From IMG/VR virus record IMGVR_UViG_3300037070_000401, positions 1 through 29,698 of that record: a stretch of 29,698 nt of DNA; one strand, 5' to 3'. The position numbers and the translations under genes were made by a program. The DNA is from a virus. Below, in pieces: positions 1 to 15,042 of the stretch (within the stretch, counting starts at the first letter, position 1; every line of letters begins with the position of its first letter). The notes under the pieces were generated by a model. The model worked only from the letters and a program-made list of their open reading frames with translations, ran no database searches and was not told where the DNA came from.

Positions 1-893
1 AGGTTCTGTACTGCCTGAACAAGCACTCCACCAAAGAAATCATGATGCGTCTGGATAACAAGTTTGTCCCTGTAGACCCGAGAAACTGGAATACCGGGTG
101 GGACATGACTGTAACGGTGGGTCTTGGTACTGGAGACAAGGAGCAGGAGCTTATGCACCTCCAGGTCGTGGGCACGTACATGGAGAAAATGCTTGCCGCC
201 GGTAAAGCCCACATGATTACCGACAAGAATCTCTATTCCTACGGGAGAAAACTTGTCGAGAGTACCGGCTACAAGCATGTTGAGGAATTCATCACGAACC
301 CGGAAGGACAACAGCCACCGCCTCCTCCGCCCAGTCCTGAAGTCATCAAGGCGCAGTCCGAAAAAGAAATAACCCAGATGAAGCTGCAAGCCGATCAGCA
401 GAAGTCTATTGGTCAGGCTTCCGTTGAAAAGCTGATGAAGGACATTGAGGTTCAAGGACAGATTCAGATAGCAAGAATCAACGTAGAAGCGCAGATGGCC
501 ATAAAGACGATGGAACTCAACGCTGCCTCGCTAATGAAGGACAAGGAACTTAGGACAGAAGCTGAATTCGAGGTCTTCAGGGCGAACAACGAAGCCTCTA
601 TCAAGCAGGCTGAAATCGATGCAGAGCGTGAAAGAGAGTTGCTTAAGGCCCAGGTCTCCGAAAACGCTTCTATCCGCCAATCTGAGACGCAGAAAGAAGC
701 CGCCAAGGAAGCCTCAAAGCAAAAGCAGATCGAGAGCAAGCAGAACGAAAGCCGTAAAAATGGCGAATCCAGGGAGAAGTCTCCGCCCATAAATGTGACG
801 GTGCCGGTGACGATAGCCGGGGGAAAACGGGTTACTACGGTAAAGCGGGACAAGGACGGCAATATGACAGGGGCTGAGTCGGTAGATCAGTAA
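1..893 (+). CDS. Portal protein, C-terminal part (5' end outside window)
   Basis: The frame is open from base 3 to the stop at 891-893, so the gene begins before the window and the ATGs near 42 are internal. The first visible part, with [20 protein letters not shown], matches the conserved C-terminal segment of P22-type portal proteins, the dodecameric ring at the capsid vertex through which DNA is packaged and ejected. A run of six prolines (about residue 105 of the visible part) is followed by roughly 130 residues rich in Gln, Glu, Lys and Ala, predicted to be a long coiled coil, and a short beta-rich tail ending [11 protein letters not shown], which is common in such portals. It overlaps the next start by one base. 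Family assignment is confident; the phage subgroup cannot be decided from this fragment. Confidence 0.87.
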
Positions 894-1825
894 TGGCCCG
901 CGTATGGCACACAACCCCTGCTGATGGAACATTTTCAGGTGCAGGGGCTACCGCTTGGGATGCTGACCATAACCTAGACCTTGCAGGACTTACAGGCGCT
1001 CAAGGCGTAACGGGTTCACAGGGAATCCAGGGCGATCCTGGGCCTACTGGCTCTCAGGGAATCCAGGGAGACCCCGGACCCACTGGAGCTGGAATCCAAG
1101 GCCCGACCGGGGCAACTGGAGTCTCAGGAGCTACCGGATCTACCGGAGCCGGAGTAACTGGGTCTCCTGGTGTAACCGGCGCTCAAGGCGCTACCGGACC
1201 CACAGGGGTAACCGGGGCCGGAGTTCAAGGCCCTACTGGTGCAAGTGGCGCGGCTGGAGCTACAGGCCCTACTGGTGTCACAGGGGCTGGTGTTCAGGGT
1301 CCAACTGGTGCCACTGGGGTTTCCGGTGCTACAGGGCCTAGTGGGGCAGCAGGCCCTACTGGACCGACCGGCCCCATAGGCGGGACGACGACCAGGCTTG
1401 GCACGACTGGGGCCACTACTGTTGGCACGACATTAGTTACCAACACTACCCTGACGTTCCCCATTACTTCTGGGAACACGTATAACTTCGAGTTCAATGT
1501 ACTGTTCCAGAGCGGTGCTACTACAAACGGCGGGCGATTCAGCCTGATATTTCCGGCTGTAACTATAGTTGCGGCGCGCGTGGTTATTCCAACTGCTGCC
1601 GATGCAGCCGCCGGCTCATGGCATGGAACCATTATTTCCAGTGGAGACGCAGTTCTGGCGAGCGGCGTCGAAACGGCAAACACAACTTACGTGGCAAAGA
1701 TAGAGGGGACAATAATTCCTTCGGCTAATGGAAATATCTCTCTTGCCCATGCTGGAGAGATCGCAACTACGCTTGGGGTGAGGCTGATGCCGGGATCAAA
1801 CGCGAGGCTGGTATTGGTTGCATAA
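893..1825 (+). CDS. Collagen-like phage structural/appendage protein
   Basis: This 310-residue protein has a short N-terminal region (1-31) and a collagen-like Gly-X-Y stretch at about 32-163. The triplets are rich in GPT, GAT and GVT and are broken several times by a two-residue slip in the pattern TGAGVQG. A beta-rich C-terminal domain of about 147 residues follows and probably folds as a trimer, as in other bacterial and phage collagen-like proteins. Collagen stretches in phages form rod-like fibres or capsid appendages. Position directly after the portal supports a virion role. Thr in the Y position is the kind of residue that carries O-glycans in the Bacillus exosporium protein BclA; whether it is modified here is inference. 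The ATG overlaps the portal stop by one base, so translation is probably coupled. Confidence 0.85.
986..1381 (+). repeat. Collagen Gly-X-Y coding repeat
   Basis: About 44 Gly-X-Y triplets, with several GA-type interruptions that shift the register. At DNA level the units are degenerate (many synonymous differences), which suggests selection on the protein rather than very recent slippage expansion. Two copies of a [10 protein letters not shown] block lie in tandem near the start. Confidence 0.85.
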
Positions 1826-2624
1826 CTACAATGCGGTGCGCGTGCTGGAGCCGCAGGACATCACGCTCAAAAACCTGCCATACAAGTTTCCGACGAGATC
1901 AGCACTTACTTTGCAGGCGGAACTGGACCAGATAGAGAATGCAGTAAAGCAGGGCTTTCCAAGAATAGAGTTGAAGCCGGTCCGCGATGACGCGCTTTGC
2001 ATAGTGGGCTTCGGCCCTTCCCTGCAAGATACATGGCAGCATATTACGCATCCCTGTATCACTATGTCCGGTTCGCACGACTTCCTGTTGAGCAAGGGAG
2101 TTGTGCCTGATTATCACGCTCAATGCGATGGGCGGGACCACCAGGCCAGATTCATCGAGCATCCTAACCACGGAACGCAGTACCTCATGGCGTCCATATG
2201 TTGCCCCAAGATATGGGAGCAGCTAAAAGGCCATGATGTCAGGCTGTGGCATAACGCCCACGGCAAGCATGTGGTGGACTGGATAGGCGAACACGACTCT
2301 GGCGGCGTACTGGTCGTCGGCGGGTCCACGATAGGTCTTTGTTCAATTCATCTCGGCGGTATCCTTGGTTTCCGCAAGTTCAGGTGTTTCGGTATGGATG
2401 GAAACTACAAGGACTTCAAGAGACATGCCGGTGAACATTATGATCCGCAGACGCAGGGTGTTATCAGGCGCTGGGCGAACGGCAGGAAGTGGTTTACATC
2501 TCCGCAGATGTCAAATGCAGTTGACGAATTCATTCGGCTGGCTACAAACAGCGAGCTTGAATTCGACGTATACGGCACTTCGCTTCTAACCGACGCCTTA
2601 GAAGAGGCCGGCCTTGTCTACTGA
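1818..2624 (+). CDS. MptE/Maf-like DUF115 protein (copy 1), possible glycosyltransferase
   Basis: The protein has the pattern of the DUF115 (6-hydroxymethylpterin pyrophosphokinase MptE-like) superfamily: a Rossmann-like beginning with IVGFGPSL (about 62-69), then [15 protein letters not shown], a YLMASICCP strand, an LWHN motif, a VVGGSTIG loop, and [11 protein letters not shown] followed by a conserved His region. Bacterial Maf proteins of this superfamily transfer nonulosonic-acid sugars to flagellin; the archaeal relative MptE makes a pterin precursor. Which activity applies cannot be read from sequence, but position directly behind a collagen-like virion gene favours sugar transfer to protein. 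The start is TTG at 1818, overlapping the preceding gene by 8 bases; GTG at 1836 or 1842 is possible. It is a divergent paralogue of the product of 6192-7061. Confidence 0.75.
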
Positions 2625-2976
2625 TTTCTTTGGGAGCGAGTTCTTCGGAGGCGGGTTTTTCACTGGCGGTGCTGCTCCTGAAGTTACCGCGCCTGTCATT
2701 CCTGGCGGCGTTAGAAGAGGGCGAAAACTCAGGATCTTTCCTGACAAGAAACGACTTTTTCTAACAGAGCAGGAAGCTATAACCGTACTTCTTGGGTATT
2801 ACCACGAACAGAAACTCAAAGCCTCTGAAGCGGAGTTTCTGGGATTAAAACCTAATCGTAAGAAGGTAATTGTCAGTCCTGAGGAGAGGACTGAAATCCG
2901 TGAGGCTCTCGATATGGTGGACGATAAATGGAAAGTCCGGAGACAAGAGGAAGAGTGGCTCGTAACACTTCACTAA
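2614..2976 (+). CDS. Conserved hypothetical small phage protein
   Basis: Unrecognised 120-residue protein. The N-terminus is rich in Phe and Gly (FFGSEFFGGGFFTGG, about 5-19), typical of short phage virion-associated proteins. The C-terminal two thirds are charged and probably helical, with a segment reminiscent of a helix-turn element but no clear DNA-binding motif. TTG at 2614 is the likely start, with AGAGG at 2603-2607 six bases upstream. It overlaps the DUF115 gene by 11 bases and the next gene by 49 bases, so it is embedded in the late operon. Function unknown. Confidence 0.6.
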   Translation: MSTDFFGSEFFGGGFFTGGAAPEVTAPVIPGGVRRGRKLRIFPDKKRLFLTEQEAITVLLGYYHEQKLKASEAEFLGLKPNRKKVIVSPEERTEIREALDMVDDKWKVRRQEEEWLVTLH

Positions 2977-3575
2977 GAATAATTCTCCAGCCATTTATTT
3001 TCCTGGGCTACGTACTGGCAACAGTGTGTTTGTTCGTATTGACGTTAATTGGCTACGCGCTGACGTGGTTATACGGGCGCGCAGGGTGGCCGTCAGGATT
3101 AAATGCCATCAACTGTTGGCCTTTTGTAATAGCAAAGTGGCTTGAACAGGGGCCGTCAAAAACTTACGTCATAGTAAGAATGAGTTGGGAGGGCGCTCCT
3201 GTGCCGCATGGGTTTTTTGCTAAATCCATAGAAGGGCTGGCAGTAGAGGAATTCATTCCTATAAACAAACCTCGTCCAGGATGGCGAAGACTATTTCATG
3301 CGTTCTGGCATAAGGGTCGCGTGCGAGATGGAATCGGTGAAGAGAGCAGGTCAACTAAACATAAGGAGTACATCATGTCTGAAAAACCAGGACTCAATGT
3401 TTCGGTGATATTCGAGGTTACAAACGTAGATGGATCTCCATACCACAAAACAGAACTCTCGTATGCAGGAGTGCCTTATTACGCCTTGGTGTACATGGAG
3501 AAGGTTCTCGTAGGCGCACTTGCTGAGATGAACAAATTGGGAGAATCTCTGGTGGACAAGGACAAAGACAAGTAA
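2928..3575 (+). CDS. Membrane-anchored hypothetical phage protein with internal start
   Basis: This 215-residue protein has one or two hydrophobic segments near the N-terminus (about residues 17-50, including LQPFIFLGYVLATVCLFVL), then a soluble region rich in Trp and basic residues, and a C-terminal part beginning at Met150. I do not recognise the family. ATG 2928 overlaps the previous gene by 49 bases; GTG 2955, closer to a GAGGAAGA sequence, is an alternative that would keep the membrane segment. An in-frame ATG at 3375 has a much better ribosome binding site than the first start, so two products are likely. The next gene begins directly after the stop. Confidence 0.55.
   Translation: MESPETRGRVARNTSLRIILQPFIFLGYVLATVCLFVLTLIGYALTWLYGRAGWPSGLNAINCWPFVIAKWLEQGPSKTYVIVRMSWEGAPVPHGFFAKSIEGLAVEEFIPINKPRPGWRRLFHAFWHKGRVRDGIGEESRSTKHKEYIMSEKPGLNVSVIFEVTNVDGSPYHKTELSYAGVPYYALVYMEKVLVGALAEMNKLGESLVDKDKDK
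3363..3368 (+). promoter_or_regulatory. Strong internal ribosome binding site
   Basis: AAGGAG followed by six bases and ATG at 3375, inside an open frame that started 447 bases earlier. This decides the nested start described above. Confidence 0.6.
3375..3575 (+). CDS. Nested in-frame product (66 residues), alternative start
   Basis: Starting at ATG 3375 in the same frame as the larger gene, this would give a soluble 66-residue protein beginning MSEKPGLNVSVIFEVTNVDG. AAGGAG at 3363-3368 lies six bases upstream, one of the best ribosome binding sites in the window, whereas the 2928 start has no clear one. Either the long frame makes two proteins, or the soluble domain is the main product and the membrane part is a separate unit joined to it. 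The segment is predicted beta strand then helix. Function unknown. Confidence 0.5.
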   Translation: MSEKPGLNVSVIFEVTNVDGSPYHKTELSYAGVPYYALVYMEKVLVGALAEMNKLGESLVDKDKDK

Positions 3576-4040
3576 ATGGCACTCACCAGTTCATATACTG
3601 TAGAACATGACCAGATAGACGGACGGTTCTGGGTCAATGAAAAGCACGTAGATGTAATCTCACGAGAGCATTTTCTTTCCTATCTAGCCACTGACGCTAT
3701 AGACAAGGATGCAACGCTTCTCATCCATGCGGCTCAGTTAGAGCCGGATCTTATCTTTGCTGAAGTCATGGAGTGCATAGAGTTCGACCGCATCACCTTT
3801 GTCTATAGCACAAAAAATCAGGTTGCCGCTGCGATAAGGCAGCTCTACAAGGATGGAAATCCTGAACTCGTGGTGAGAATAGCGCGCTGGATCAGGAGAC
3901 GAATCATCGCTGGAGACTTTACTGAAACCCAGGTCCGCAATGCTTTCGGTCTGACCGTTACGCAATGGGACGCTCTTAAAATAAAACTCCAGGCAATGGA
4001 CGAAGCTCTTAATACAGTTGAAACAGCGGTGGGTGAATGA
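3576..4040 (+). CDS. Conserved hypothetical phage protein
   Basis: A 154-residue soluble, mixed alpha/beta protein with no membrane segment, signal or motif that I can tie to a family. The ATG follows the preceding TAA without a gap, and the stop overlaps the next ATG in an ATGA arrangement, so it is part of a coupled string. The C-terminal half (about 90-150) looks helical, with an RWIRRRIIAGDF basic patch. The order of genes around it suggests an accessory virion or assembly protein, but nothing in the sequence proves this. Confidence 0.55.
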   Translation: MALTSSYTVEHDQIDGRFWVNEKHVDVISREHFLSYLATDAIDKDATLLIHAAQLEPDLIFAEVMECIEFDRITFVYSTKNQVAAAIRQLYKDGNPELVVRIARWIRRRIIAGDFTETQVRNAFGLTVTQWDALKIKLQAMDEALNTVETAVGE

Positions 4041-5362
4041 CTGATATTTATGTGCGTTCCACTGACGGCTCAGACGCATCAGACGGTTTAACGTGGGCAA
4101 ATGCGAAAGCTACCCTTGCTGGAGCAGCGGCAATAGAAGCCGCAGGAGACAGAATCTTTGTCTCCCAGGTTCACGCCGAAAGTACCGCTGCGGCTATCAC
4201 TGCGGCATGGGCCGGGACGCTGCTTGCACCCAATTACATACTTTGCGGTGATGATGCTGCGGAACCGCCAACAGCACTTGCGACAACTGCAACGGTTACA
4301 ACGACAGGCAACAGCAATATCACCATTGGAAGTGCTGGTTATTTTTATGTTTATGGTCAGACTTACATTGCCGGAAGCGGGGCGAGCGGAACTGCAACTA
4401 TAAACATCCATTCAGCCGCAACGAGAGCGGTATGTCAAAGCTGTAGTTTCCAGATTGCTTCAACCGGAACATCTTCGAGAATAAACACAGCCACGAACTC
4501 CAATGGGAATGCAGTTCTTCGTGACTGTACGTTCAAATTCGCAGCTACCGCACAAGGTATTTCTGCTACGGCTCCAACATATATTTTTGGAGGATCAATC
4601 CTCGCTGGTGGGACGACTCCTACCGCCCTTGTTCTTGGCAGCGGCAATTCCACTCCAAGACTGTTTGTTGATGGCATGGATTTATCCAATGCTGACGCCA
4701 CAATGAATCTATCCGGTGATAATGGTCTTAATCAGTTTGTTGTATTCATGAATTGCAAGCTTCCTGCCAGTTGGTCGGGCGTACTTAATTCATCTACCCC
4801 TGGTGTCGGGTCCAAGTATGCGATGTTCAACTGTGATGCAGGAGACACGAATTACAGGATATGGACGAAGACACAGTTTGGAGAAGTGACCAGCGAAACA
4901 ACGATTATAAAGACAGGAGGGGCTTCTGACGGAACCACTGGATTAAGCTGGAAAATGGTTGCCACTGCAAACCCTGAATTTCCAATTCAGACATTGCAGT
5001 CAGAGGAAATCGTGAAGTGGAACGAAACCACGGGTTCTGCAATCACTGTGACTGTAGACATAATTCACGATTCTGTTACAAATCTTCAGAATGACGATGT
5101 GTGGCTGGAAGTCAATTATCTCGGGACCAGTGGCTTTCCTCTTGGGAGTTTTATTAACGATGCCGCTGCAGATATTCTGACTGCGGCTGCGGATCAAACT
5201 GCTAGTTCAGCAACGTGGACTACTACAGGTCTGACCAATCCGAACAAGCAGAAGCTGGAAGTTACTTTTACTCCGCAGGAGAAGGGATATATTCACGCCA
5301 TCGTGCATCTCGGCTTGGCGTCAAAGACGATATACGTCAATCCTGTTCTGGACATAACTTAA
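4037..5362 (+). CDS. Right-handed beta-helix-like phage structural protein
   Basis: The 441-residue protein begins with DIYVRSTDGSDASDGLTW, a start shared by many secreted or virion beta-helix proteins of the pectin-lyase fold. Residues about 15-270 show the short irregular strands with recurrent Gly, Asn, Ser and Thr, and small-residue turns, expected of a parallel beta-helix. The last 150 residues look like a separate beta-sandwich. No catalytic residues can be assigned, so it may be a decoration or receptor-binding structure rather than an enzyme. It lies between virion genes and overlaps the previous stop by four bases (ATGA). The product is very rich in Ala, Thr and Ser, in keeping with an exposed protein. 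Confidence 0.6.
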   Translation: MTDIYVRSTDGSDASDGLTWANAKATLAGAAAIEAAGDRIFVSQVHAESTAAAITAAWAGTLLAPNYILCGDDAAEPPTALATTATVTTTGNSNITIGSAGYFYVYGQTYIAGSGASGTATINIHSAATRAVCQSCSFQIASTGTSSRINTATNSNGNAVLRDCTFKFAATAQGISATAPTYIFGGSILAGGTTPTALVLGSGNSTPRLFVDGMDLSNADATMNLSGDNGLNQFVVFMNCKLPASWSGVLNSSTPGVGSKYAMFNCDAGDTNYRIWTKTQFGEVTSETTIIKTGGASDGTTGLSWKMVATANPEFPIQTLQSEEIVKWNETTGSAITVTVDIIHDSVTNLQNDDVWLEVNYLGTSGFPLGSFINDAAADILTAAADQTASSATWTTTGLTNPNKQKLEVTFTPQEKGYIHAIVHLGLASKTIYVNPVLDIT

Positions 5363-6220
5363 ATGGCTTCGGAACGCCAGATACCGGGCGGGCCATACCT
5401 TAACGAAACCGGAACAAGACAAGCACAGATACCCGGTGCGCAGTATGTAAATGAGACCGTAGCAGCCGGTGGCGGGGTAACGTCATCGCCCGGTGTTGGG
5501 TCGATAGTCTTTACAGGGTTAGCGCCAAGTTCTTCGGTTTCAAGCTCCGGTGTAGTTGCGACTCCAGCACTTGGCACGATTGTATTCACAGGCCTTGCTC
5601 CTGCTCTTTCAGTAACAGCGCACCAGTTCTCGGCACCAAGTCTTGGAACGATAGTCTTTACCGGACTCGCTCCAACAGCTGCTACAACAGCGCACCAGTC
5701 TGTAGCTTCTGCGCTTGGAACGATAGTTTTCACAGGTCTTGCCCCGACTTCGCAGGTCTCTACGTCTGGAGAAGTATTTCCAAGCGCAGGTCTGATTACA
5801 TTTACCGGACTCGCCCCGACAGCAGTAAGTCCGCTGAGTGTAGCTCCAGGACAGGGTTCTATAGTCTTCACTGGTCTTGCCCCAACGGTAGCAGGCCCAG
5901 TGGTTGTGGCTCCGGACAAGGGCGCAATAGTATTTACCGGGCTGGCTCCTACCCTTTCAGAAGGGATAGCAGTCGGTGCGGGGCTTATTACATTTACAGG
6001 CTTTACCCCGGTAGTTGCCACCACCACTGGAATTTACTCATTCCCGAGTACAGGACAAATAGTATTTCAAGGACTGGTTTCTACCGTAACCGGAGGGTCT
6101 TCGCCATTCACGGTATGGACAGAGCAGTCCGATGGCACAAGCGCATGGACAGAACAATTTGACGGCACTTCACAATGGACAGAGCAGTTTGATGGAACTA
6201 CAACCTGGTCTGAGAATTAG
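5363..6220 (+). CDS. Tandem-repeat phage structural protein (VFTGLAP repeats)
   Basis: Three nested repeat types make up this 285-residue protein. Residues 5-33 hold two copies of an RQIPGGPYLNET-type unit, a motif seen in many phage virion proteins. Residues about 45-245 contain nine copies of a 20-26-residue unit with core GxIVFTGLAPT, the eighth and ninth degenerate. Residues 252-285 contain three copies plus a remnant of WTEQFDGTSx. The units are probably short beta strands joined by Ser/Thr/Ala/Pro-rich linkers, suited to a surface fibre or a capsid appendage. Start ATG directly after the preceding stop, with no evident ribosome binding site, implying coupled translation. Its end overlaps a DUF115 gene. 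Exact role unknown. Confidence 0.7.
   Translation: MASERQIPGGPYLNETGTRQAQIPGAQYVNETVAAGGGVTSSPGVGSIVFTGLAPSSSVSSSGVVATPALGTIVFTGLAPALSVTAHQFSAPSLGTIVFTGLAPTAATTAHQSVASALGTIVFTGLAPTSQVSTSGEVFPSAGLITFTGLAPTAVSPLSVAPGQGSIVFTGLAPTVAGPVVVAPDKGAIVFTGLAPTLSEGIAVGAGLITFTGFTPVVATTTGIYSFPSTGQIVFQGLVSTVTGGSSPFTVWTEQSDGTSAWTEQFDGTSQWTEQFDGTTTWSEN
5495..6097 (+). repeat. Nine-copy protein repeat, core GxIVFTGLAPT
   Basis: Unit length about 60-78 bases. The core (ATAGT(C/T)TT(T/C)AC...GG.CT.GC(C/T)CC) is conserved at protein level but differs at many synonymous sites, so the copies are not recent duplicates. Linkers vary in length and sequence and are rich in Ser, Thr, Ala and Pro. Copies 5 and 8 share AGLITFTG in place of IVFTG. 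Confidence 0.8.
6116..6217 (+). repeat. 30-base tandem repeat, WTEQFDGTSx
   Basis: Three full 30-base copies and a truncated fourth at the 3' end of the repeat-protein gene, each encoding WTEQ(S/F)DGT plus two residues, ending WSEN. The following DUF115 gene starts inside this block in another frame. Confidence 0.8.
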
Positions 6221-7061
6221 AAACGGGCGCGACGCTACAAAGCACGCAGGCATAAATGTCACAGAGCAGCAGATCCGCGAAAACATTCTTGAGAATCTCA
6301 AGCTAGGACTTAAAGAGGCTTCTCCGCATCTACAGCAGGATACCGAGATTATGCTTCTCGGAGGTGGTCCGAGTCTTGATGGATATCAAGAGGAAATCAG
6401 ACTCAAGCGAAACTCAGGAATGCTGCTTGTTACCGCGAACGGAGCTTACAACTGGTGTGTTACAAGAGGAATAAGACCGAGCGCGCAGATCGTTGTTGAT
6501 GGGAGAGAATTTAACAAGCGGTTCGTAGTGCCGAATATCGAGAAGTGCCATTACCTATTGGCTTCGCAGTGTCATCCTGAAACAGTAAAGGCCGCTCCCA
6601 AAGAGCAGATTTATCTCTGGCATGCAGGATCGAACGGCCCGGTAAAAGAGACGCTGGAGTACTACGACAAAGGTCGCGGGGAAGGCAGGGAGTGGTTTCC
6701 TGTAGCAGGTGGAGCCACGGTTATGTTGAGGGCTATCCCGCTACTGATAATGCTCGGATACCACATGTTCCATATCTACGGGTTCGATTCCTGCATTATC
6801 GGTGGGCAACATCATTCCTACGAACAACCCGAGAACGACAGCAAACGTATCCTGGATGTTGCTGTAGGCGGTAAGGTCTTTAAGTGCTTTCCGTGGATGT
6901 TAATACAGGCACAGCAGTTCATTGATATGCAGAAAATGATTGCAGAGCATTGCGAGCTTGCAGTCTACGGGGCAGGTTTAATCGCACACATTATCAAGAC
7001 AGGCGCGGATATCGCAGAGGAGTTAAATTATGGCAGCAACAGCATTCAGCATCTACAATAA
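6192..7061 (+). CDS. MptE/Maf-like DUF115 protein (copy 2), possible glycosyltransferase
   Basis: Second member of the DUF115 superfamily. Recognisable elements in order are MLLGGGPSLDG, IRPSAQIVVDGREFNKRFV, HYLLASQCHP, YLWHAG, VAGGATVMLRAIPLLIMLGY, FHIYGFDSC and a HHSYEQ histidine motif. These occur in the same order, with short identical patches, as in the protein at 1818-2624, so the two are paralogues. Bacterial relatives (Maf) glycosylate flagellin. The frame is open from ATG 6132, but that start lies inside the WTEQ repeat of the previous gene; I prefer ATG 6192, which shortens the overlap to 29 bases. The C-terminus overlaps the next gene by 32 bases. It sits immediately downstream of a repetitive Ser/Thr-rich virion gene, as copy 1 does. 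Confidence 0.75.
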   Translation: MELQPGLRIRNGRDATKHAGINVTEQQIRENILENLKLGLKEASPHLQQDTEIMLLGGGPSLDGYQEEIRLKRNSGMLLVTANGAYNWCVTRGIRPSAQIVVDGREFNKRFVVPNIEKCHYLLASQCHPETVKAAPKEQIYLWHAGSNGPVKETLEYYDKGRGEGREWFPVAGGATVMLRAIPLLIMLGYHMFHIYGFDSCIIGGQHHSYEQPENDSKRILDVAVGGKVFKCFPWMLIQAQQFIDMQKMIAEHCELAVYGAGLIAHIIKTGADIAEELNYGSNSIQHLQ

Positions 7062-7452
7062 CGCCAAGCGGTATTTGGTGGATGGCACGCTTGATCTGGA
7101 TACGGACACGATCATTGCGCACCTGTTCAAAAGCGATTCCAACGCTTCCACCTTCACCTTATCGCTTCTATCCGAAGTCACAGGATCGGTAGCAGGACAG
7201 GCGGGCTATCCAGGGTCTAAAACCCTGACGGTAGCCATAACCGATACTGGCCTTTCAACTGGCGTGGACTCTAACGACCTCGTTTTCACAGCGAGCGGAT
7301 CTGACCTGACCTCAGTTCAGTTCCTTGTAATAGCAGAGTCCGGAGGGAAGCTTCTCTGCTGGACAAGGCTTTCCACGGCACTTTTCAACGTGACCTCCGG
7401 TAATACGTTGACAGTAACTATTGCCGCAGGCGGCGTCTTCACAATGCAATGA
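7030..7452 (+). CDS. Conserved phage structural protein, hypothetical
   Basis: A 140-residue, beta-rich protein starting MAATAFSIYNNAKRYLVDGT, with strands separated by Gly/Ser/Thr turns and a C-terminal VTIAAGGVFTMQ. Proteins with this start and organisation occur among head and tail genes of other phages, so a decoration or minor tail role is likely, but I cannot name a family. AGGAG at about 7018-7022 precedes the ATG by seven bases, a clear ribosome binding site although the start lies inside the DUF115 gene. The stop overlaps the next ATG (ATGCAATGAG region). Confidence 0.6.
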   Translation: MAATAFSIYNNAKRYLVDGTLDLDTDTIIAHLFKSDSNASTFTLSLLSEVTGSVAGQAGYPGSKTLTVAITDTGLSTGVDSNDLVFTASGSDLTSVQFLVIAESGGKLLCWTRLSTALFNVTSGNTLTVTIAAGGVFTMQ

Positions 7453-7727
7453 GTCCAGACGAAGAAGTTATCAGGGGCCACAAGGCGTCACAGGTTCTTG
7501 AAAACGAGTTGGTGATAGAGGCTTTTGAGGAATGCAGAAAGCAGATCATGCTGGCGTGGTCACAAACGCCCGCGCGTGACGTAGAGGCGCGTGAGTTCAT
7601 TTTCAAGCTCCACCAGGCATCTCTTCGGTTTGAGGAGATTTTCAAAGGTTACGTTGATACAGGCAAGGTTGCTGCCGACAAGATCAAGCAGCGATCCCTG
7701 ATGGGTAAGTTGAAGTCAATTATGTAA
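7449..7727 (+). CDS. Conserved small head-region protein
   Basis: A 92-residue helical, charged protein with the pattern MSPDEEVIRGHKASQVLENELVIEAFEE..RKQIMLAW.QTPARDVEAREF. This pattern recurs just before the scaffold and capsid genes in many podovirus-like phages, though without an established function. Its constant position suggests a part in head assembly. It overlaps the previous gene by four bases, and the stop forms part of the ribosome binding site of the scaffold gene, so the two are likely co-translated. Confidence 0.65.
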   Translation: MSPDEEVIRGHKASQVLENELVIEAFEECRKQIMLAWSQTPARDVEAREFIFKLHQASLRFEEIFKGYVDTGKVAADKIKQRSLMGKLKSIM

Positions 7728-7737
7728 GGAGAATGAA

Positions 7738-8721
7738 ATGGCAGAAGTAGCAAACCCTCAGGGAGCTACGTTGGAAGCCGCCGCAGCAAAGATGCTTGAG
7801 GCTGGCGTAGTACCGAAAGACGAGGAAGAGAAGCAAGAGGCGGCTCCAGAGGAAACTCCTGACGAGGAGCAACCTGCGGAAGTAGCCCCTACTGAGGAAG
7901 AATCCAAACCGGAACAACCGGAGGCATCTGACACGGTAGAGATTGATCCTGAAGAATCGCTATTCGAGGTCGAAATTAAGGATGGCGGACAACTTCTTAA
8001 AAAAGAGAAGTTGAGTCTGAATGAACTCAAGAATGGGTACAAACGGCTTCAGGACTATTCGCGTGACATGCAGGAAGTCGCCCGCCAGCGGGAAGGTGTG
8101 AAAGATGAAATCCGCAAAGGCATTGCCGACCAGCAAAAGCAGTATCTACAAGCTCTGGAGACACAACAGAAGCTTGTATGGGGTCTCGTTGCACCCGAAC
8201 TCCAGAACGTAAACCTTGACCAGCTTGCCAGTGACGATCCTGCCGAGTACGTCAAAGTGTCAAATAAACTGAATCGTTTCAATATGACGATTCAGGGGAT
8301 ACAAGCTGAACAACAAAAACTCGCGCAGCAGGAGAGGGAACACCTAGAAAGGGTGGTCCTCCCCAAAGCCGCGGAGGAGCTTCAGCGAGACATTCCAAAC
8401 TGGGGTGCCGATCTCCAAAGAAACATCTCGCGTAACGCGATGGAGAAGTACGGTTTCACCACAGAGGAATTAAGCATGGTCGTTGATCCCCGTTATATAA
8501 AGGTTCTCCATGATGCTTTTCAGTTCAATGAGGGCAAGAAAGTGTCTGATACTCAGAAAACTATTGCTCAAAAGAAGGTTGTTGAGAAGCCGAAAGTCTT
8601 GAAACCCGGTACTACTCAACAGGCCAAGAAAAGCGAAGGGGATGATTTCAAACGACTGCAAAAATCAGGGCGTTTCGAGGATGCAGCAACAGTGATTCTC
8701 GGGAGGCTCAACAGGAGTTAG
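7738..8721 (+). CDS. Capsid scaffold protein
   Basis: The 327-residue protein has the make-up of a scaffold: an acidic, Glu/Pro-rich disordered N-terminus (about 20-80), a long helical, Gln-rich coiled-coil centre (about 95-215), and a basic C-terminal segment (KKVVEKPKVLKP...KRLQKSGRFEDAATVILGRL) that would bind the capsid protein. It lies immediately upstream of the major capsid gene, the usual place. Scaffolds direct assembly of the procapsid and are released or cleaved before DNA packaging; no protease domain is seen here. AAGGAG at 7726-7731, six bases before the ATG, is a strong ribosome binding site, in keeping with high expression. Confidence 0.82.
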   Translation: MAEVANPQGATLEAAAAKMLEAGVVPKDEEEKQEAAPEETPDEEQPAEVAPTEEESKPEQPEASDTVEIDPEESLFEVEIKDGGQLLKKEKLSLNELKNGYKRLQDYSRDMQEVARQREGVKDEIRKGIADQQKQYLQALETQQKLVWGLVAPELQNVNLDQLASDDPAEYVKVSNKLNRFNMTIQGIQAEQQKLAQQEREHLERVVLPKAAEELQRDIPNWGADLQRNISRNAMEKYGFTTEELSMVVDPRYIKVLHDAFQFNEGKKVSDTQKTIAQKKVVEKPKVLKPGTTQQAKKSEGDDFKRLQKSGRFEDAATVILGRLNRS

Positions 8722-8722
8722 C

Positions 8723-9694
8723 ATGACTGTTCCATCAGGTACGTTTCAGACGTATCAGGCGATTGGAAACAGGGAAGACCTGAGCGATATTATCTACAAC
8801 ATCGCTCCCACGGAAACCCCGTTTCTGAGCATGGCCGCCCGTACCACGGCCAAAGCCCGATTGCACGAATGGCAAACCGACACCCTCGCAACTGCGGCTG
8901 CAAACGTCGCGGTTGAAGGTGACGACGCAACAATCAATACCGTAGTCCCGACCGTCAGACTGACGAATTACAATCAAATCCTGTCGAAAGCAGTATCTGT
9001 TTCCGGCACGGAAGAGGTTGTTAACAAGGCCGGTCGTAACAGCGAAATGGCCTACCAGATCGCCAAACGCTCGAAAGAGTTGAAGCGTGACCTGGAATTT
9101 GCCCTTGTTGGAAACCAGGACTCCACAACTGGAACGGCTTCGGCTGGTTCAGAAATGGGCGGACTGGAAGCATGGCTGTCCAGCAACAAGACCTCTATGC
9201 AGACTTCCGCTGGCGGAGCTTCCACTGGTGGTTTCGTCTCTGGCAAGGTTCAGTCCCCGGTTGACTCGTCTCCGGTGGGCACATTCACCAAAGCAGGCCT
9301 TGACGCAATTATCGCGGCCACATGGCTTGCTGGTGGAGACCCGAAAATCATCATGACTGGGCCTTTCAACAAGGCAAGGCTATCCGGATTTGTCGGAATC
9401 GCCACCCTGTACAAAGAGGTTCCGGGACTGAAGCAGGGAACGATTGTTGGCGGGGCAGATGTGTACGTCAGCAACTTTGGCGAACACACCGTAGTCCCGA
9501 ATAGGTTCCAGCGTGATCGTACCGTGTTCGTTCTGGACATGGACTATTGGGCGGTCGCGTATCTGCGGCCCTTCACCAGCTTTGATCTAGCGAAAACAGG
9601 AGACTCCGAAAGGCGTGAACTGCTTTGCGAAGCAACGCTGGTTTCTCGTAACGAAGCGGCGTCAGGGAAGATCACTGACCTGCTCACGGTGTAA
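8723..9694 (+). CDS. Major capsid protein, SU10/DUF5309 family
   Basis: The 323-residue sequence matches the SU10-type (DUF5309) HK97-fold capsid family. Diagnostic stretches are YQAIGNREDLSDIIYNIAPTETPFLSM near the N-terminus, the TAKARLHEWQTDTL segment, LSKAVSVSGTEE, and AKRSKELKRDLEFAL, followed by a central insertion of Gly/Ser (about 150-185) and a C-terminal VFVLDMDYWAVAYLRPF strand. No N-terminal cleaved delta domain is evident, consistent with the separate scaffold. AGGAG at 8713-8717 gives a good ribosome binding site. This family occurs in SU10-like podoviruses and some other short-tailed phages. A hairpin terminator follows directly after the stop, which would give this gene its own transcript end. 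Confidence 0.9.
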   Translation: MTVPSGTFQTYQAIGNREDLSDIIYNIAPTETPFLSMAARTTAKARLHEWQTDTLATAAANVAVEGDDATINTVVPTVRLTNYNQILSKAVSVSGTEEVVNKAGRNSEMAYQIAKRSKELKRDLEFALVGNQDSTTGTASAGSEMGGLEAWLSSNKTSMQTSAGGASTGGFVSGKVQSPVDSSPVGTFTKAGLDAIIAATWLAGGDPKIIMTGPFNKARLSGFVGIATLYKEVPGLKQGTIVGGADVYVSNFGEHTVVPNRFQRDRTVFVLDMDYWAVAYLRPFTSFDLAKTGDSERRELLCEATLVSRNEAASGKITDLLTV

Positions 9695-9699
9695 CGTAT

Positions 9700-9724
9700 G
9701 GGCCGGGGGAAACCTCGGCCCTTT
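9700..9724 (+). terminator. Intrinsic terminator after the major capsid gene
   Basis: A nine-base-pair GC-rich stem (9700-9708 with 9713-9721, one G-U pair) is closed by a GAAA tetraloop (9709-9712) and followed by TTTCTC. It starts six bases after the capsid stop. The U-run is short, so termination may be partial, letting some transcription continue into the downstream genes while capsid mRNA accumulates. Any ATG within it (9698) is unlikely to be a start. Confidence 0.75.
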
Positions 9725-9727
9725 CTC

Positions 9728-9901
9728 ATGGACAATGAACAGGCATACCAATACGTTCTAAGCATCAAGAGCAAGGTTTGGCGCGGAGAGGCTGTTGATC
9801 CGGGTGATTACCCAGGCGTTGATCCTGCTATACTAGATGAGGTAAGAAAGAACTTTGAGGTTATCGTCAAAGCAGAGAGGCGCAAAGATTATGGAAAATA
9901 A
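9728..9901 (+). CDS. Small hypothetical protein
   Basis: 57 residues from ATG 9728 (MDNEQAYQYVLSIKSKVWRG). An in-frame ATG at 9698 lies against the capsid terminator and would put its basic leader inside the hairpin, so the later start is chosen; it has no clear ribosome binding site. The protein is charged and soluble, with a conserved-looking VDPGDYPGVDPAIL segment. Function unknown. It overlaps the next gene by 11 bases. Confidence 0.5.
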   Translation: MDNEQAYQYVLSIKSKVWRGEAVDPGDYPGVDPAILDEVRKNFEVIVKAERRKDYGK

Positions 9902-10061
9902 ATTCGATACATTCACTGTTGTTGCTGATCCAGTTCCAAGTAAAACCGAATGGAGTTGGTATGAAACTCCGTGGATGTACATTGAAGATGAAACAGGTGA
10001 GTGGTGGGTGAATAGAAAAACATTTGAACGTCGCCCGTATGATCCAGAAGTGGACTCATGA
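9891..10061 (+). CDS. Small hypothetical protein
   Basis: A 56-residue protein from ATG 9891 (MENKFDTFTVVADPVPSK), unusually rich in Trp (WSWYETPWMY..EWW). AGAGAGG at 9874-9880 is a distant ribosome binding site. An earlier in-frame ATG at 9855 would deepen the overlap with the previous gene and is less likely. No function can be assigned. The stop overlaps the next ATG (ATGA). Confidence 0.5.
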   Translation: MENKFDTFTVVADPVPSKTEWSWYETPWMYIEDETGEWWVNRKTFERRPYDPEVDS

Positions 10062-10390
10062 AGAGAATACTTTCACAAAGCGATGGCATAACGGAAATAT
10101 TCCACCACGATGAACAGACGAATGAATCTGTAATAGAGACGGTTCAGGATGTCGAGCCTTATCTTGAGGTGGCGAGCATTCTCAGAAATGATGACTCGTA
10201 TTCAAAGGATGGCATAAAGCGTGATTGGTGGCACTTCGCTCACGTACCGAACATTGTCATAGACAAGATGCTCAATGAGGATGGAGTTAATTTCTACGAC
10301 AAAAATGATTGGAAGAAAGTTGGTGAGTTACTGAACACAAAGTATTCAAAATGCAAAGTAACTTATGGAAAACACAAGTTCAAGACTTGA
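10058..10390 (+). CDS. Conserved phage protein downstream of capsid, unknown function
   Basis: The 110-residue protein has the pattern MKRILS..DGITE.FHHDEQTNESVIETVQDVEPYLE...ILRNDDSYSKDGIKRDWWHFAHVPNIVIDKML. Proteins of this pattern occur a few genes after the major capsid gene in several podovirus-like phages. No enzymatic motif is visible, so a virion or assembly role is only suggested by its position. It overlaps its upstream neighbour by four bases (ATGA), and the next gene starts 26 bases inside its end. Confidence 0.6.
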   Translation: MKRILSQSDGITEIFHHDEQTNESVIETVQDVEPYLEVASILRNDDSYSKDGIKRDWWHFAHVPNIVIDKMLNEDGVNFYDKNDWKKVGELLNTKYSKCKVTYGKHKFKT

Positions 10391-11708
10391 CGAGGCGCTG
10401 AAACTCCTGAATGCAGGAGATGCTGAGAAGTGCCTCAAGATAGCCTCACTTGAACTGGACGAAGACCCGCAGAACCTGATCGCTACATGGCTTTCCGGAA
10501 AGGCCTTCCTGGACATGAGAAGGCCAGGACTTGCGGATATAGTCATTTCAAGAGCGATAGAGCTAAATCCTAAAGATCCTTTGCTATGGTCATATCTCGG
10601 GATAGCTTACAACATGAGCTATAGACCAGACCTTGCGATGGAAGCCCTTAGAAGGGCGCTGGAGTTCTCCCCGAGATACCAACTGGCTTTGGATGCGATG
10701 AGCCTTGTGTTTGTGAACAAGGGAGACCCTAACAGGGCTGTGGAATGGGTCAACAAGGCTATGGCGATCAAGGAGGATATCCGAGATAAGCACGGCCTCA
10801 CCACGCTTGACGTTCTCCAGCACGCAGGCTTTGCCTACCTCATGCGCGGCGATTACAAGGAAGGCTGGCCGCTCTTTAATACCGGGCTTGGAAACGACGC
10901 CTCAAGACGCGAGCGCGTTTACGGAACGGAGAAGAAGTGGGACGGCACAAAAGGATTGACTGTAGTTGCTTTCGGGGAACAGGGCATTGGAGACGAACTG
11001 GCCTTTGCCTCTGCTATTCCAGACTTCATAAAGGACTGCAACGCCATTATCGAGTGTGACCACAGGCTGGAAGGCTTGTTCAAACGCTCATTCGACTGCC
11101 CTGTGTACGGCACCAGATACAGGTCTGCGGACTGGTCAAAGGATATAAAGGTAGACGCTCATATATCCCTTGCGCAGTTGATGGAGTTCTACAGGAACAG
11201 CAAGGAAGACTTTCCTGGTACGGCGTATCTCAAGCCCGATCCAGAGAAGCGCAAGTGGTGGAGAGCGATACTGGATCAGTATCCGGGGAAGAAAATAGGC
11301 ATTACCTGGAATGGCGGGGATACTTATACAGGGCATAGAAAGAGGTCTGTAGAACTGGAAGACCTGCTCCAATTGAGAGGCAACGACACATTCGTTTCCC
11401 TGGAATACAAAGACCCTGGAGACTGCGGGGTACTCAACTTCCACAAGCAACTGGACCAGAAGAATTACGACGATACCGCTGCTTTGGTTGCCGAACTGGA
11501 TCATGTAATATCTGTGACCACGGCGATAGTAGACCTGTGCGGTGCCATAGGTAAGTCATGTGATGTTCTGGTGCCAACCATACCGCCTTGGAGATACGGT
11601 CTTAAGGGCGATATGCCGTGGTACAAGTCCGTTCGTCTATTTAGGCAGCTTCCCAACGAACCCTGGTCAAAGACCATAAGGAGATATGCGCGTCTTCATA
11701 GGAGTTGA
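10365..11708 (+). CDS. TPR-containing glycosyltransferase (GT-B, GT41/GT9-like)
   Basis: The N-terminal ~150 residues form tetratricopeptide repeats (WLSGKAFLDMRRPGLADIV, LLWSYLGIAYNMSYRPDLAMEALRRAL, NRAVEWVNKAMA). The C-terminal 250 residues resemble a GT-B glycosyltransferase of the heptosyltransferase/O-GlcNAc-transferase type: the GEQGIGDELAFASAIPDF motif at 204-221, IIECDHRLEGLFKRSF, the IGITWNGG motif, and a VISVTTAIVDLCGAIGKSCDVLVP segment that normally binds the sugar nucleotide. TPR plus GT-B is the plan of protein O-GlcNAc transferases, in which TPRs bind the protein acceptor. Phages with this plan are known but the acceptor is usually unproven. It is the first gene of a sugar-modification cassette and starts inside the previous gene. 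Confidence 0.78.
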   Translation: MENTSSRLDEALKLLNAGDAEKCLKIASLELDEDPQNLIATWLSGKAFLDMRRPGLADIVISRAIELNPKDPLLWSYLGIAYNMSYRPDLAMEALRRALEFSPRYQLALDAMSLVFVNKGDPNRAVEWVNKAMAIKEDIRDKHGLTTLDVLQHAGFAYLMRGDYKEGWPLFNTGLGNDASRRERVYGTEKKWDGTKGLTVVAFGEQGIGDELAFASAIPDFIKDCNAIIECDHRLEGLFKRSFDCPVYGTRYRSADWSKDIKVDAHISLAQLMEFYRNSKEDFPGTAYLKPDPEKRKWWRAILDQYPGKKIGITWNGGDTYTGHRKRSVELEDLLQLRGNDTFVSLEYKDPGDCGVLNFHKQLDQKNYDDTAALVAELDHVISVTTAIVDLCGAIGKSCDVLVPTIPPWRYGLKGDMPWYKSVRLFRQLPNEPWSKTIRRYARLHRS

Positions 11709-12309
11709 TTCAAGGCAGTCCATAGCAGGCGCTGTTCTGTCTCACAGCATCAGCGTAAGAAGCACAGAGCCAGTATCAATAACGCTCTTACACCTTCACC
11801 AACTGCCAATTACACACAGAGGACTGACGGAGTTCACATACTCCCGCTATCTGGTTCCGTGGCTATGCAACTATGAAGGTAAGGCGTTATTCATAGACGC
11901 CGACATGCTCTGTCTTGGAGACATAGCAAATCTATTCAAGCTGTACGACGAGAGCGCGGTACAGGTCGTAAAGAGCCACAGGCGGTTTGAATGGCCTTCT
12001 CTCATGCTGTTCAACTGCGAGAAGTGCAAGATGCTTACTCCTGACTATGTACAGAACTACGAAACACCGCAAGACCTGAAGTGGGCATCAGAGATAGGCG
12101 AACTCCCGGCAGTATGGAACCACCTTGTTGGCTACGATTCTCCGAAGGCTGCCCAGATCGTTCATTTCACCAAGGGCATCCCAGTATGGGAGGAGACGCG
12201 GGACTGCGAATATGCAGATCTGTGGCACGAAGAACGAAAAGCAATGATGAGTACTTGTGGGTATAGAGAGTTGATGGGCAAAAGCATACACATCAAGGAG
12301 AGTGCATGA
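11686..12309 (+). CDS. GT-A glycosyltransferase, GT8-like
   Basis: The 207-residue protein begins MRVFIGVDSRQ and shows the GT8 plan: EFTYSRYLVPWL (about 49-60), the DAD metal-binding motif in ALFIDADMLCLGDI (71-73), a core substrate segment, and a C-terminal HFTKGIPVW corresponding to the HFxGxxKPW signature. It would transfer a hexose or related sugar from a nucleotide donor. AAGGAG at 11676-11681, four bases before ATG, is a good ribosome binding site; the ATG lies 23 bases inside the TPR gene. The family usually has about 280 residues, so this is a compact, possibly minimal member. Neighbours suggest a multi-enzyme glycan pathway. Confidence 0.75.
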   Translation: MRVFIGVDSRQSIAGAVLSHSISVRSTEPVSITLLHLHQLPITHRGLTEFTYSRYLVPWLCNYEGKALFIDADMLCLGDIANLFKLYDESAVQVVKSHRRFEWPSLMLFNCEKCKMLTPDYVQNYETPQDLKWASEIGELPAVWNHLVGYDSPKAAQIVHFTKGIPVWEETRDCEYADLWHEERKAMMSTCGYRELMGKSIHIKESA

Positions 12310-13085
12310 ACACGGTCATAACGACCTGTAATGAACATTATTTCCAGAACAAGGGCGGCAAGGCTTTCCTGGAGACATTCAGGAAACACTGGCCCAAGTC
12401 GGTGAAACTCGTCATCTACTACGAGGGAGACGAGCTAAGACCAGATGAGGAAAACGTCCAATGGCGCTACATAGAAGAAGTAGAACACTACATGTGGTGG
12501 ATGGACGCAATAGGTAAGTTCCCGGTTATGAGCGGGAACCTCGGAAGATATAACATCGAATACGACGCCAGAATGTGTAGAGCGGGGTTTATCCATGCCC
12601 ACGCCCTTAAAACTCTTGGCGGGAAGGTGTTCTGGCTGGATGCCGATGTAATCACGCACTCAGACGTTCCGGAGACGTTCCTTGATGAAGTCCTGCCGGA
12701 TAGCAAGCTCTGTTGCTGCCTCCTGAGACCGTGGTTCAATACGGAGACAGGGTTTCTCGGGATCAATGGCAACCATCCGCTTATAGAGCATTGGCTTGAC
12801 TGCTGGACACAGGTCTATTTGAGCGGGTTGATCTTCACCCAGCAAGGATGGCACGACAACTGGGGATTCGATCTTGCCAGGCAGATCATCAAGCATCCTG
12901 ATGAATTCGTTAATCTTGCCAAGAATGTTCCACATGGAACAATGCACCCATTCATAAATTCCATATGCGGGAAGTACATGGATCACCAGAAAGGGGCAAG
13001 GAAGAACTCTGGTTCCAAGAGAGATGATCTGGTAATAGAAAGAACAGAGCCATACTGGGCTAGGCTCGAAGAACATGCTGCGTGA
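12306..13085 (+). CDS. Glycosyltransferase-like protein (GT-A fold)
   Basis: A 259-residue protein with a DxD-type motif in VFWLDADVITHSDVPETFL (about 108-126), preceded by GRYNIEYDARMCRAGFIHAHAL (about 80-101) and followed by FLGINGNHPLIEHWLDCW. The C-terminus has the YMDHQKGARKNSG..RDDLVIERTEPYW signature of a group of phage and marine bacterial proteins found in similar sugar clusters. DAD at 112-114 would bind the metal and the nucleotide sugar. AAGGAG at 12295-12300, five bases before ATG, gives a strong start. The gene overlaps its neighbours by four and eleven bases. Donor and acceptor are unknown. Confidence 0.65.
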   Translation: MNTVITTCNEHYFQNKGGKAFLETFRKHWPKSVKLVIYYEGDELRPDEENVQWRYIEEVEHYMWWMDAIGKFPVMSGNLGRYNIEYDARMCRAGFIHAHALKTLGGKVFWLDADVITHSDVPETFLDEVLPDSKLCCCLLRPWFNTETGFLGINGNHPLIEHWLDCWTQVYLSGLIFTQQGWHDNWGFDLARQIIKHPDEFVNLAKNVPHGTMHPFINSICGKYMDHQKGARKNSGSKRDDLVIERTEPYWARLEEHAA

Positions 13086-14004
13086 GTGCGAACTTTTACT
13101 AGAGGCGGAATGCGGTGGAAAGGCCTTCCTAGTTCCTAGTTGTACATCCGCGTTAGAACTCTCATGTCGGATGGTTCTTAATCCTGGAGACGAAGTGATT
13201 ATGCCTTCGTGGTCTCACCCATCGGCTGCGAATGCTGTAATCCTTGCAGGTGGAGTCCCGGTATTCGTAGATGTAAATGACGACCTGAACATAGAAGTTC
13301 TGGCAATTCGAGTAGCGATAACCTCAAAGACCAAAGCTATCCTGCCTGTCCACTATGCGGGTGTTGTGGCAGACATGACTGTGATAAACAACATAGCAGA
13401 TGCGCATGGGTTGTTCGTCATAGAAGACGCAGCCCAAGCTATTGGTAACTGGAAGGTCTCAGGAGATTTCGGGTGTCTTAGTTTTCAGGAGAAGAAGAAC
13501 GTCCAGATTGGGCAGGGTGGCGCGCTTATAGTCAAGAACGAGAAGTTCCTAGACCGCGTTCAGGTGTTCCAGAACATGGGAACAGACAGGCACAAAAACC
13601 CCAACTGGGATTGGGTAGGTGTTGGAAGTTCCTACTTGATGAGCGAGAAGCTAGCCCCAATGCTTTACGAGCAATTGGCAATGCTTCCACATATCACCAA
13701 GGCACGGCAGGACCAATGGAATGTGTATGCAGATAATTTTAAGGAACATGCCGACAAATCATACTACGTGGGAAACGGGCATTTGTTTTGGCTGTTGGTT
13801 GAAGACAAGTTAGAGTGGATTAACACGCACCAACACGCCACAACACACTTCGACGCACTTCACATGACGCCACCTGGAAGGAAGTATGGACGTGTTGGAG
13901 GCCCGATTACAAGAGCGACAAAAGCGATGCAGAAGCTTGTTAAGCTTTATACAAATGTCCAACAGGCATCCGCAGAACCCGGACGAATACAGCAAGCTGC
14001 TTGA
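13075..14004 (+). CDS. DegT/DnrJ/EryC1/StrS sugar aminotransferase, N-terminally short
   Basis: PLP-dependent sugar aminotransferase, closest in pattern to the WecE/RffA type, which makes dTDP-4-amino-4,6-dideoxygalactose. Visible elements are VPSCTSALELSCRMV, GDEVIMPSWSHPSAANAV, LPVHYAGVVADM, FVIEDAAQAIG (117-121 EDAAQ), SFQEKKNVQIGQGGAL with the Schiff-base Lys at about 141, and GSSYLMSEKLAPMLYEQL. At 310 residues it is shorter than the usual 370-380: the N-terminus lacks about 30-40 residues and the C-terminal substrate domain is compact. Homology seems to continue upstream of the ATG in the same frame (see findings). It overlaps the preceding gene by 11 bases and the next by 50 bases. Confidence 0.75.
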   Translation: MLRECELLLEAECGGKAFLVPSCTSALELSCRMVLNPGDEVIMPSWSHPSAANAVILAGGVPVFVDVNDDLNIEVLAIRVAITSKTKAILPVHYAGVVADMTVINNIADAHGLFVIEDAAQAIGNWKVSGDFGCLSFQEKKNVQIGQGGALIVKNEKFLDRVQVFQNMGTDRHKNPNWDWVGVGSSYLMSEKLAPMLYEQLAMLPHITKARQDQWNVYADNFKEHADKSYYVGNGHLFWLLVEDKLEWINTHQHATTHFDALHMTPPGRKYGRVGGPITRATKAMQKLVKLYTNVQQASAEPGRIQQAA

Positions 14005-14491
14005 GTGGGTCAAAGATGCAAACTCGGTGCTTGAGATCGGTTCTCGGTACGGAACGACGCTTGTAGACTTTGCCCATAACATGGCGGGAAAAAGGCTTGT
14101 GTGTGTGGACTGGCCCAACAAGGAGGGCTGGAACGATCCAAACATAGAGGCCGAGCTTATAGACAACGTCATGAAGCTCAAGGGAGAGGGGTTTGACGTA
14201 CACCTTATCCTTGCCGACTCTCACCACCCTGATACGCTGGAAAAGGTTACAAGGCTGGGGCCATATGATTTCGTTTTCATTGATGGAGACCATTCCTACG
14301 AAGGGGTAAAGCAGGACTGGGAGTATTACGGTCCTCTGGGAAGACAGATTGTATTCCACGACATCGTAAAACCATCCAAGGGGAGAAACAAAAGCCTCAT
14401 GGTATGGAAGTTCTGGGAAGAGATAAAAGGAGAAGAGTACATAGCAAAGGAATCGGTAATGGGTCTGGGGCGCAAATGGAACGTCAGCTAG
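13955..14491 (+). CDS. Class I SAM-dependent methyltransferase (Methyltransf_24-like)
   Basis: 178 residues from ATG 13955. The SAM-binding glycine motif is SVLEIGSRYGTTLVDFA (about 24-40), the acidic end of strand 2 is LVCVDWPNKEGW, and the DFVFIDGDHSYEGVKQDW motif with a later IVFHDIV is typical of the cephalosporin-hydroxylase-like/Methyltransf_24 group. Such enzymes methylate sugars or other small groups in glycan clusters. The frame is open from ATG 13886, but this would overlap the aminotransferase by 119 bases and lacks an aligned N-terminus; 13955 is preferred. Substrate unknown; position in the cassette suggests a sugar O-methyl group. Confidence 0.7.
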   Translation: MSNRHPQNPDEYSKLLEWVKDANSVLEIGSRYGTTLVDFAHNMAGKRLVCVDWPNKEGWNDPNIEAELIDNVMKLKGEGFDVHLILADSHHPDTLEKVTRLGPYDFVFIDGDHSYEGVKQDWEYYGPLGRQIVFHDIVKPSKGRNKSLMVWKFWEEIKGEEYIAKESVMGLGRKWNVS

Positions 14492-15042
14492 GCCGACTAG
14501 AAGAGATCCACAAGGGGCATGTAAGGCGTTACGAGTTTGCCGCCAACCTAGTAAGCGGGGACGTACTTGACGCGGCTTGTGGTTGTGGCTACGGTTCCAG
14601 AATGCTAATGGACGCAGGCTGTAACGTGGTCGGGATAGACATAGACGAGAAAACCATTGTCTATGCCAAGAAGAACTACTCCGGTCCTGAGTATATTGTC
14701 TGCAATGTCTGCCCTGATGAAAAGTTCTCACTTGGATACTTTGACTGGGTTGTGTCTTTCGAGACCATAGAGCATTTGCCAAACCCTGGAAAAGCATTGA
14801 GAGCGTTCAGGGAGTGCGCTGAGAACCTCATCGTCTCAAGTCCGAACAGCGACCATTACCCATTCAGGCCGGAGAGCTATGCCGGGGATATGTATCCTCA
14901 TTTGAGGCACTATAGCCCCAAGGAACTCGAAGACCTGCTCAATTCCTGCGGGTGGGAAGTAGTTGGGCGATACGGGCAGGCACAGAAGATCAAGCATGTT
15001 GACGAAAGGGAAGGCCCATTTCAAGTAATGGTATGCGAATAA
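14476..15042 (+). CDS. Class I SAM-dependent methyltransferase (UbiG/Methyltransf_11-like)
   Basis: The 188-residue protein has a canonical motif I DVLDAACGCGYGSRML (about 29-44), then VVGIDIDEKTIVYAKKNY, FDWVVSFETIEHLPNPGKAL, and LIVSSPNSDHYPF. This is the small standalone Rossmann methyltransferase type common in polysaccharide clusters. ATG 14476 is preferred over the earlier in-frame ATG 14404: it reduces overlap with the previous gene to 16 bases and starts directly at the family-like MERQLGRLEEIHKGH. The target is unknown, but three methyltransferases in one cassette suggest multiple methylations of the same glycan. Confidence 0.72.
   Translation: MERQLGRLEEIHKGHVRRYEFAANLVSGDVLDAACGCGYGSRMLMDAGCNVVGIDIDEKTIVYAKKNYSGPEYIVCNVCPDEKFSLGYFDWVVSFETIEHLPNPGKALRAFRECAENLIVSSPNSDHYPFRPESYAGDMYPHLRHYSPKELEDLLNSCGWEVVGRYGQAQKIKHVDEREGPFQVMVCE

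Follow-up and report, generated by a model that had tools for sequence, protein, structure and literature searches.

Gene content of the portal-capsid interval

The window analyzed here is an IMG/VR virus record of 29.7 kb, taken at its whole length, from an SU10-type podovirus. It opens within an SU10-type portal gene, truncated by the window start to its C-terminal part (positions 42-893; PF23899, 107 bits; phrog_1216), and the SU10 major capsid protein is encoded at 8723-9694. After the portal come, in order, genes for a collagen-like protein with a C-terminal head domain (893-1825), a first DUF115 protein (DUF115a, 1818-2624), a protein with an FFG-rich start (2614-2976), two unnamed ORFs, the Ser/Thr-rich YVRS protein (4037-5362), an FTGLAP-repeat protein (5363-6220), a second DUF115 protein (DUF115b, 6192-7061), a Ser/Thr-rich (26%) phrog_644 protein (7030-7452; 60.7 bits to phrog_644), a further unnamed ORF, and finally one that is charged and scaffold-like. 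The portal and all of the named genes between it and the capsid are on the plus strand. A preliminary description of this DNA had reported that each DUF115 gene follows and overlaps a gene for a repetitive protein; the ORFs are where it placed them and both overlaps are real, measuring 8 nt for the first pair and 29 nt for the second when counted from the ATG at 6192. The phrog_644 gene, which overlaps the 3´ end of DUF115b by 32 nt, had been missed. Genes were called with a simple script, and many viral records are fragments.

Among 80 loci with related capsid genes, DUF115 was found in one (L030). We compared the 47 portal-capsid intervals in which both genes are visible, the window included. 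The two DUF115-carrying intervals measure 7.8 kb in the window and 4.5 kb in L030, against a median of 1.9 kb for the 45 others. Both carriers have a DUF115 gene together with an FTGxAP-repeat protein, and both gene types are missing from all 45 others (Fisher P = 0.0009, kinship ignored). The length of the carrier intervals, and the absence of either gene type from the other intervals, give these genes the appearance of an insertion. A tblastn search of 50,697 phage records returned no match to either DUF115 protein, the repeat protein, the collagen head domain, the phrog_644 protein, or two other DUF115 domains, and scans of viral contigs with single proteins found no relative; alignments were needed for recovery. 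Ser/Thr richness was discarded as evidence, because Ser+Thr contents of 22-27% are also found in further structural genes of the window.

The two DUF115 proteins and their Maf-like fold

It is near certain that both window proteins belong to the DUF115 family and have a Maf-like fold. They score 58.8 (DUF115a) and 58.3 bits (DUF115b) against PF01973 (MptE-like/DUF115), for which the curated cut-off is 34.6. DUF115a (268 aa) necessarily starts with TTG, and the start of DUF115b (289 aa) is uncertain because its ORF is already open from an ATG at 6132. With a profile built from 16 phage DUF115 sequences, the match to Maf (structure 5mu5) had E = 4e-14, against 7.6e-5 for MptE. When the AlphaFold (AF2) model of DUF115b (pLDDT 85.6, pTM 0.85) was compared with the PDB by Foldseek, Maf 5mu5 was again the top match (E = 3.6e-8), followed by MptE (8sd5/8sbu) and then by sialyltransferases. 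The relationship to Maf suggested in the preliminary description is thus borne out by profile and by predicted structure.

Maf proteins, such as those of Magnetospirillum (5mu5), Clostridium, and Campylobacter, O-glycosylate flagellin with nonulosonic acids on Ser/Thr without a fixed sequon; in their central domain they are similar to Cst-II, a sialyltransferase, and the N-terminal domain of the crystallized protein is weakly similar to methyltransferase motifs (PMC11339370). The phage proteins share the PF01973 family of the central domain, for which Maf is the closest solved fold. They differ in that Maf proteins have a three-domain architecture and are ~630 aa or longer, whereas both window proteins are single-domain. 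The window genes also sit among virion genes, donor genes are mostly absent, and no flagellin family match was seen among the scanned window proteins. A text search of open-access papers on DUF115 or MptE-like proteins in phages found none describing particle glycosylation by them, two apparent matches being in reality to DUF1156, although such proteins are already named MptE-like in sequence databases.

DUF115a and DUF115b are paralogous, as had been proposed, and their low identity (24%) and separate, well-supported clades mark them as old paralogues. Clade a unites DUF115a with the protein of contig L100 and the second DUF115 protein of L089/L110 (support 100/99), and clade b is supported at 98/96. 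This placement led us to reject a recent duplication. Neither window protein carries the methyltransferase domain that is fused to DUF115 in L087, L088, L095, L098, and L099, and in nearly all clade-b loci among the best 80 of 263 relatives, in many of them at the N-terminus.

Clade a and the collagen-like protein

The collagen-like assignment of 893-1825 is supported by PF01391 (55.4 bits, cut-off 27.2) and by tail-fibre PHROGs. The protein has 41 GXY triplets, in which Y is Ser or Thr in 63%, mostly as GXT, and its collagen structure, like the repeats described below, exceeds what chance would give. The first pair recurs in L100, a contig found with clade-a proteins, where the portal (1803-4061), a homologous collagen-like gene (4061-5215), and DUF115a (5212-6036; ~42% identical to that of the window) follow one another with comparably tight overlaps. 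Ser/Thr occupies just above 60% of the Y positions in both collagens. On the 3´ side of DUF115a, L100 also encodes a protein with an FFG start similar to that of 2614-2976, the two being too diverged for BLAST (E = 0.47). A third clade-a lineage (L089-L110) has a methyltransferase gene, not collagen, before the enzyme. The likely acceptor of a clade a enzyme, judging from gene order and triplet composition, is the collagen-like fibre.

Clade b, phrog_644, and the repeat protein

A wider scan for clade b gave 263 relatives, of which the best 80, partly close kin, were kept and fell into 15 clusters at 80% identity. Within these best 80, phrog_644 lies directly after DUF115b in 14 of 15 clusters, and a second phrog_644 gene lies directly before it in 10 of 14, with a typical spacing of 1 nt. 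It is also directly downstream in the window, L030, L087, L096, and L097, with which L086 was grouped as the first b-type loci. The gene directly 5´ of DUF115b varies: it is the portal in L030, whereas L086, L087, and L096 have a methyltransferase there, as a separate gene or as a domain. Around the second pair it is the module that is conserved, not the placement of the repeat protein next to the enzyme. The model of the phrog_644 protein was of moderate quality (pLDDT 72.6), and its fold search gave nothing significant in the PDB, the best match being a halovirus tail protein (E = 0.11).

The protein encoded at 5363-6220 is repetitive, as had been noted, with seven exact FTGLAP motifs and one FTGFTP at a spacing of 20-25 residues (G-x-I-x-FTGLAP type); FTGLAP did not occur in 2000 shuffled sequences. 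It has no convincing family match in Pfam, PHROG, or NCBIfam, and proteins of this repeat class occur in L030, L087, L111, and clade-b loci. A homologue in L145 shares a non-repeat NETGTRQA stretch with it and, as in the window, is directly preceded by a YVRS protein (7527-9050; 34% identity, E = 7e-45). The order in L145 is DUF115, phrog_644, a small ORF, YVRS, and repeat protein, against YVRS, repeat protein, DUF115, and phrog_644 in the window. Strict FTGxAP-type repeats are found downstream in 7 of 14 clade-b clusters (best 80 of 263 relatives), and looser related repeats in more. The expectation that repeat proteins and DUF115 would co-occur in related phages thus holds for the portal-capsid intervals and for many clade-b loci; it does not extend to adjacency outside the window, and L111 and L112 encode FTGLAP-type repeat proteins with no DUF115 in view. 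The L111 protein (7257-11489) has 1410 residues with ~35 G-x-I-x-F-[TN]-G-x-[AS]-P repeats, FNG occurring alongside FTG; phrog_644 is present in the same phage, and the neighbours look T4-neck-like by eye.

The FTGLAPT regions had been named as places where glycopeptides might be found. FTG is replaced by FNG, LAG, or IGS in some repeat proteins, so the Thr of this motif is not a conserved site, and we rejected it as a sequon. The likely acceptor for clade b would be phrog_644, the repeat protein, or both. For the two clades together, synteny suggests that collagen (clade a) and phrog_644 (clade b) are better supported than the repeat protein as candidate acceptors.

DUF115 genes in other phages

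In the structural clusters of diverse phages, DUF115 genes occur between two phrog_644 genes, after collagen (window and L100), and after the virion protein phrog_29386, which itself follows the capsid gene (L088, L089-L094, L098, and L099). Their most frequent companion, a methyltransferase, is not peculiar to glycosylation. L089-L094, L106, and L110 form one lineage, in which the capsid and phrog_29386 genes are directly followed by a methyltransferase gene and two distinct DUF115 genes; its first DUF115 protein has a weakly GT-B-like C-terminus (L089).

The possible sugar donor

Genes for nonulosonic acid synthesis were seen next to DUF115 in two records. L030 has a NeuB fragment just upstream of the portal-DUF115 block. 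L095 encodes, consecutively within a structural cluster (6485-11557), a methyltransferase-DUF115 protein, NeuB, a class IV aminotransferase, a radical SAM/SPASM protein, and a cytidylyltransferase of KdsB/NeuA type (nearest to KdsB in NCBIfam, under all cut-offs). NeuB was not found in the window, and overall it occurs in 2 of 17 DUF115 records of the first set, in none of 21 clade-b records, several of which are 50-80 kb long, and in none of 50 relatives without DUF115; we rejected it as a general companion. A nonulosonic donor is plausible from the L030 and L095 neighbourhoods and, given the absence of NeuB from the other records, would be mostly host-supplied if real.

Between the capsid and later structural genes, outside the two pairs, the window has a sugar-handling cassette (10365-16450, plus strand) comprising a TPR protein, a GT8-like protein, a DegT aminotransferase (189 bits), three methyltransferases, and a weak KpsS-like protein. 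A comparable TPR protein occupies the equivalent position in L030. The cassette is a possible source of a modified sugar.

Discussion

The best explanation for the locus, to which we assign a probability of roughly 55%, is a mobile virion-glycosylation module in which Maf-like transferases of two old clades add sugar to the phage's own particle proteins. The evidence is homology, fold, gene order, and recurrence, whereas activity, donor, and acceptor are inferred. A sugar coating of parts of the particle is probable because related phages keep DUF115 enzymes beside a few constant particle-protein families, and the partners stay together when their order changes, as between the window and L145. 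In this model, the module was inserted between the portal and scaffold/capsid genes, and both DUF115 proteins would act as single-domain transferases with a Maf/sialyltransferase-like fold, their O-glycosylation taking place in the cytoplasm on freshly made virion proteins that are yet to be assembled. The clade a enzyme would modify the collagen-like fibre encoded upstream, whose GXT triplets would be natural O-sites, and the clade b enzyme would modify module proteins, most likely the downstream phrog_644 product and possibly the FTGLAP-repeat protein. A nonulosonic acid, or a CMP-sugar like it, would probably be the donor, and the host would usually supply it. Against this explanation, the fold similarity to MptE leaves room for other chemistry, the repeat Thr is variable, NeuB is rare, and phrog_644 and the repeat protein are putative virion proteins.

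The preliminary description had gone further and proposed dedicated pairs, each DUF115 protein modifying the repetitive protein encoded directly upstream. Order, overlaps, the recurrence of the first pair in L100, and the shared distribution of DUF115 and repeat proteins across the intervals fit this proposal, but we consider it doubtful, since clade b has a variable upstream gene and a fixed neighbour in phrog_644, and the repeat Thr is not conserved. Phages are well known to carry modifiers of host glycans, and the DUF115 proteins might instead glycosylate host surface glycans or proteins, in receptor masking or superinfection exclusion, with the virion genes serving as a convenient insertion site. 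The general sugar cassette and the long intervals, which could be a cargo slot, are compatible with such a role. We regard it as unlikely, given that DUF115 genes lie flush with constant virion-type partners in unrelated phages, an arrangement unnecessary for a cargo gene standing on its own; we also noticed, informally, no membrane or export features in the DUF115 proteins. Similarly improbable, and slightly more so, is that virion proteins receive another group or are modified stepwise, for example with a methylated or decorated sugar, the fused methyltransferase being the main activity. The many methyltransferase-DUF115 fusions would suit this idea, but the window proteins lack the fused domain, and, because the Maf N-terminal domain is itself weakly similar to methyltransferase motifs, the fused domain may be structural. 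Finally, the Pfam name of PF01973 and the second place of MptE in the fold search suggest MptE-like pterin pyrophosphokinases that provide a pterin cofactor. This is very improbable, as the profile is much nearer Maf, cofactor synthesis is a poor match for a pair of paralogues linked to structural genes, and no pterin genes were seen among the scanned window proteins.

Virion glycosylation thus remains our preferred reading. Several known systems are partly comparable. MptE, a 6-hydroxymethyl-7,8-dihydropterin pyrophosphokinase (8sd5), shares the Pfam family and a similar fold, and differs in its weaker profile match and in a pterin context that the window does not show. Bacterial collagen-like proteins such as BclA have GXT-rich repeats that are O-glycosylated, with other transferases and on the spore surface rather than the virion. 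In mycobacteriophages (Che8 and relatives), phage-encoded glycosyltransferases reportedly add sugar to the particle, as Freeman et al. are said to have described in 2023. A related report gives major capsid proteins as the mycobacteriophage acceptors and places the Maravista transferase genes near the genome 3´ end (PMC11256854), whereas the DUF115 genes of the window are found between portal and capsid, next to genes for fibre-like and phrog_644 proteins.

If the model is true, many environmental phages have co-opted a protein glycosylation machinery of the flagellin type for their own particles, phage DUF115 and phrog_644 proteins gain a function, and there is a reason for these genes to stay together. 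It would also provide a small single-domain Maf with a natural acceptor in the adjacent gene, useful for studies of Maf recognition since no sequon is known. More tentatively, and with less confidence than in the model itself, we suggest an undescribed mobile module in unrelated tailed phages, in which each of two old Maf-type clades stays directly beside a virion acceptor particular to it (collagen fibre for a, phrog_644 protein for b), often with a methyltransferase fused to the enzyme, the nonulosonic acid coming from the host or the phage.

Elsewhere in the window, 27378-27725 resembles, by eye, a D-Ala-D-Ala-type peptidase endolysin. Two consecutive genes (23284-24336 and 24336-26309) encode proteins that are nearly identical over their first ~110 residues, the former with TGTFTGAVSG repeats and the latter with a pectate-lyase-like/beta-helix domain. 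These are likely alternative tail-fibre or spike proteins with a common anchor.
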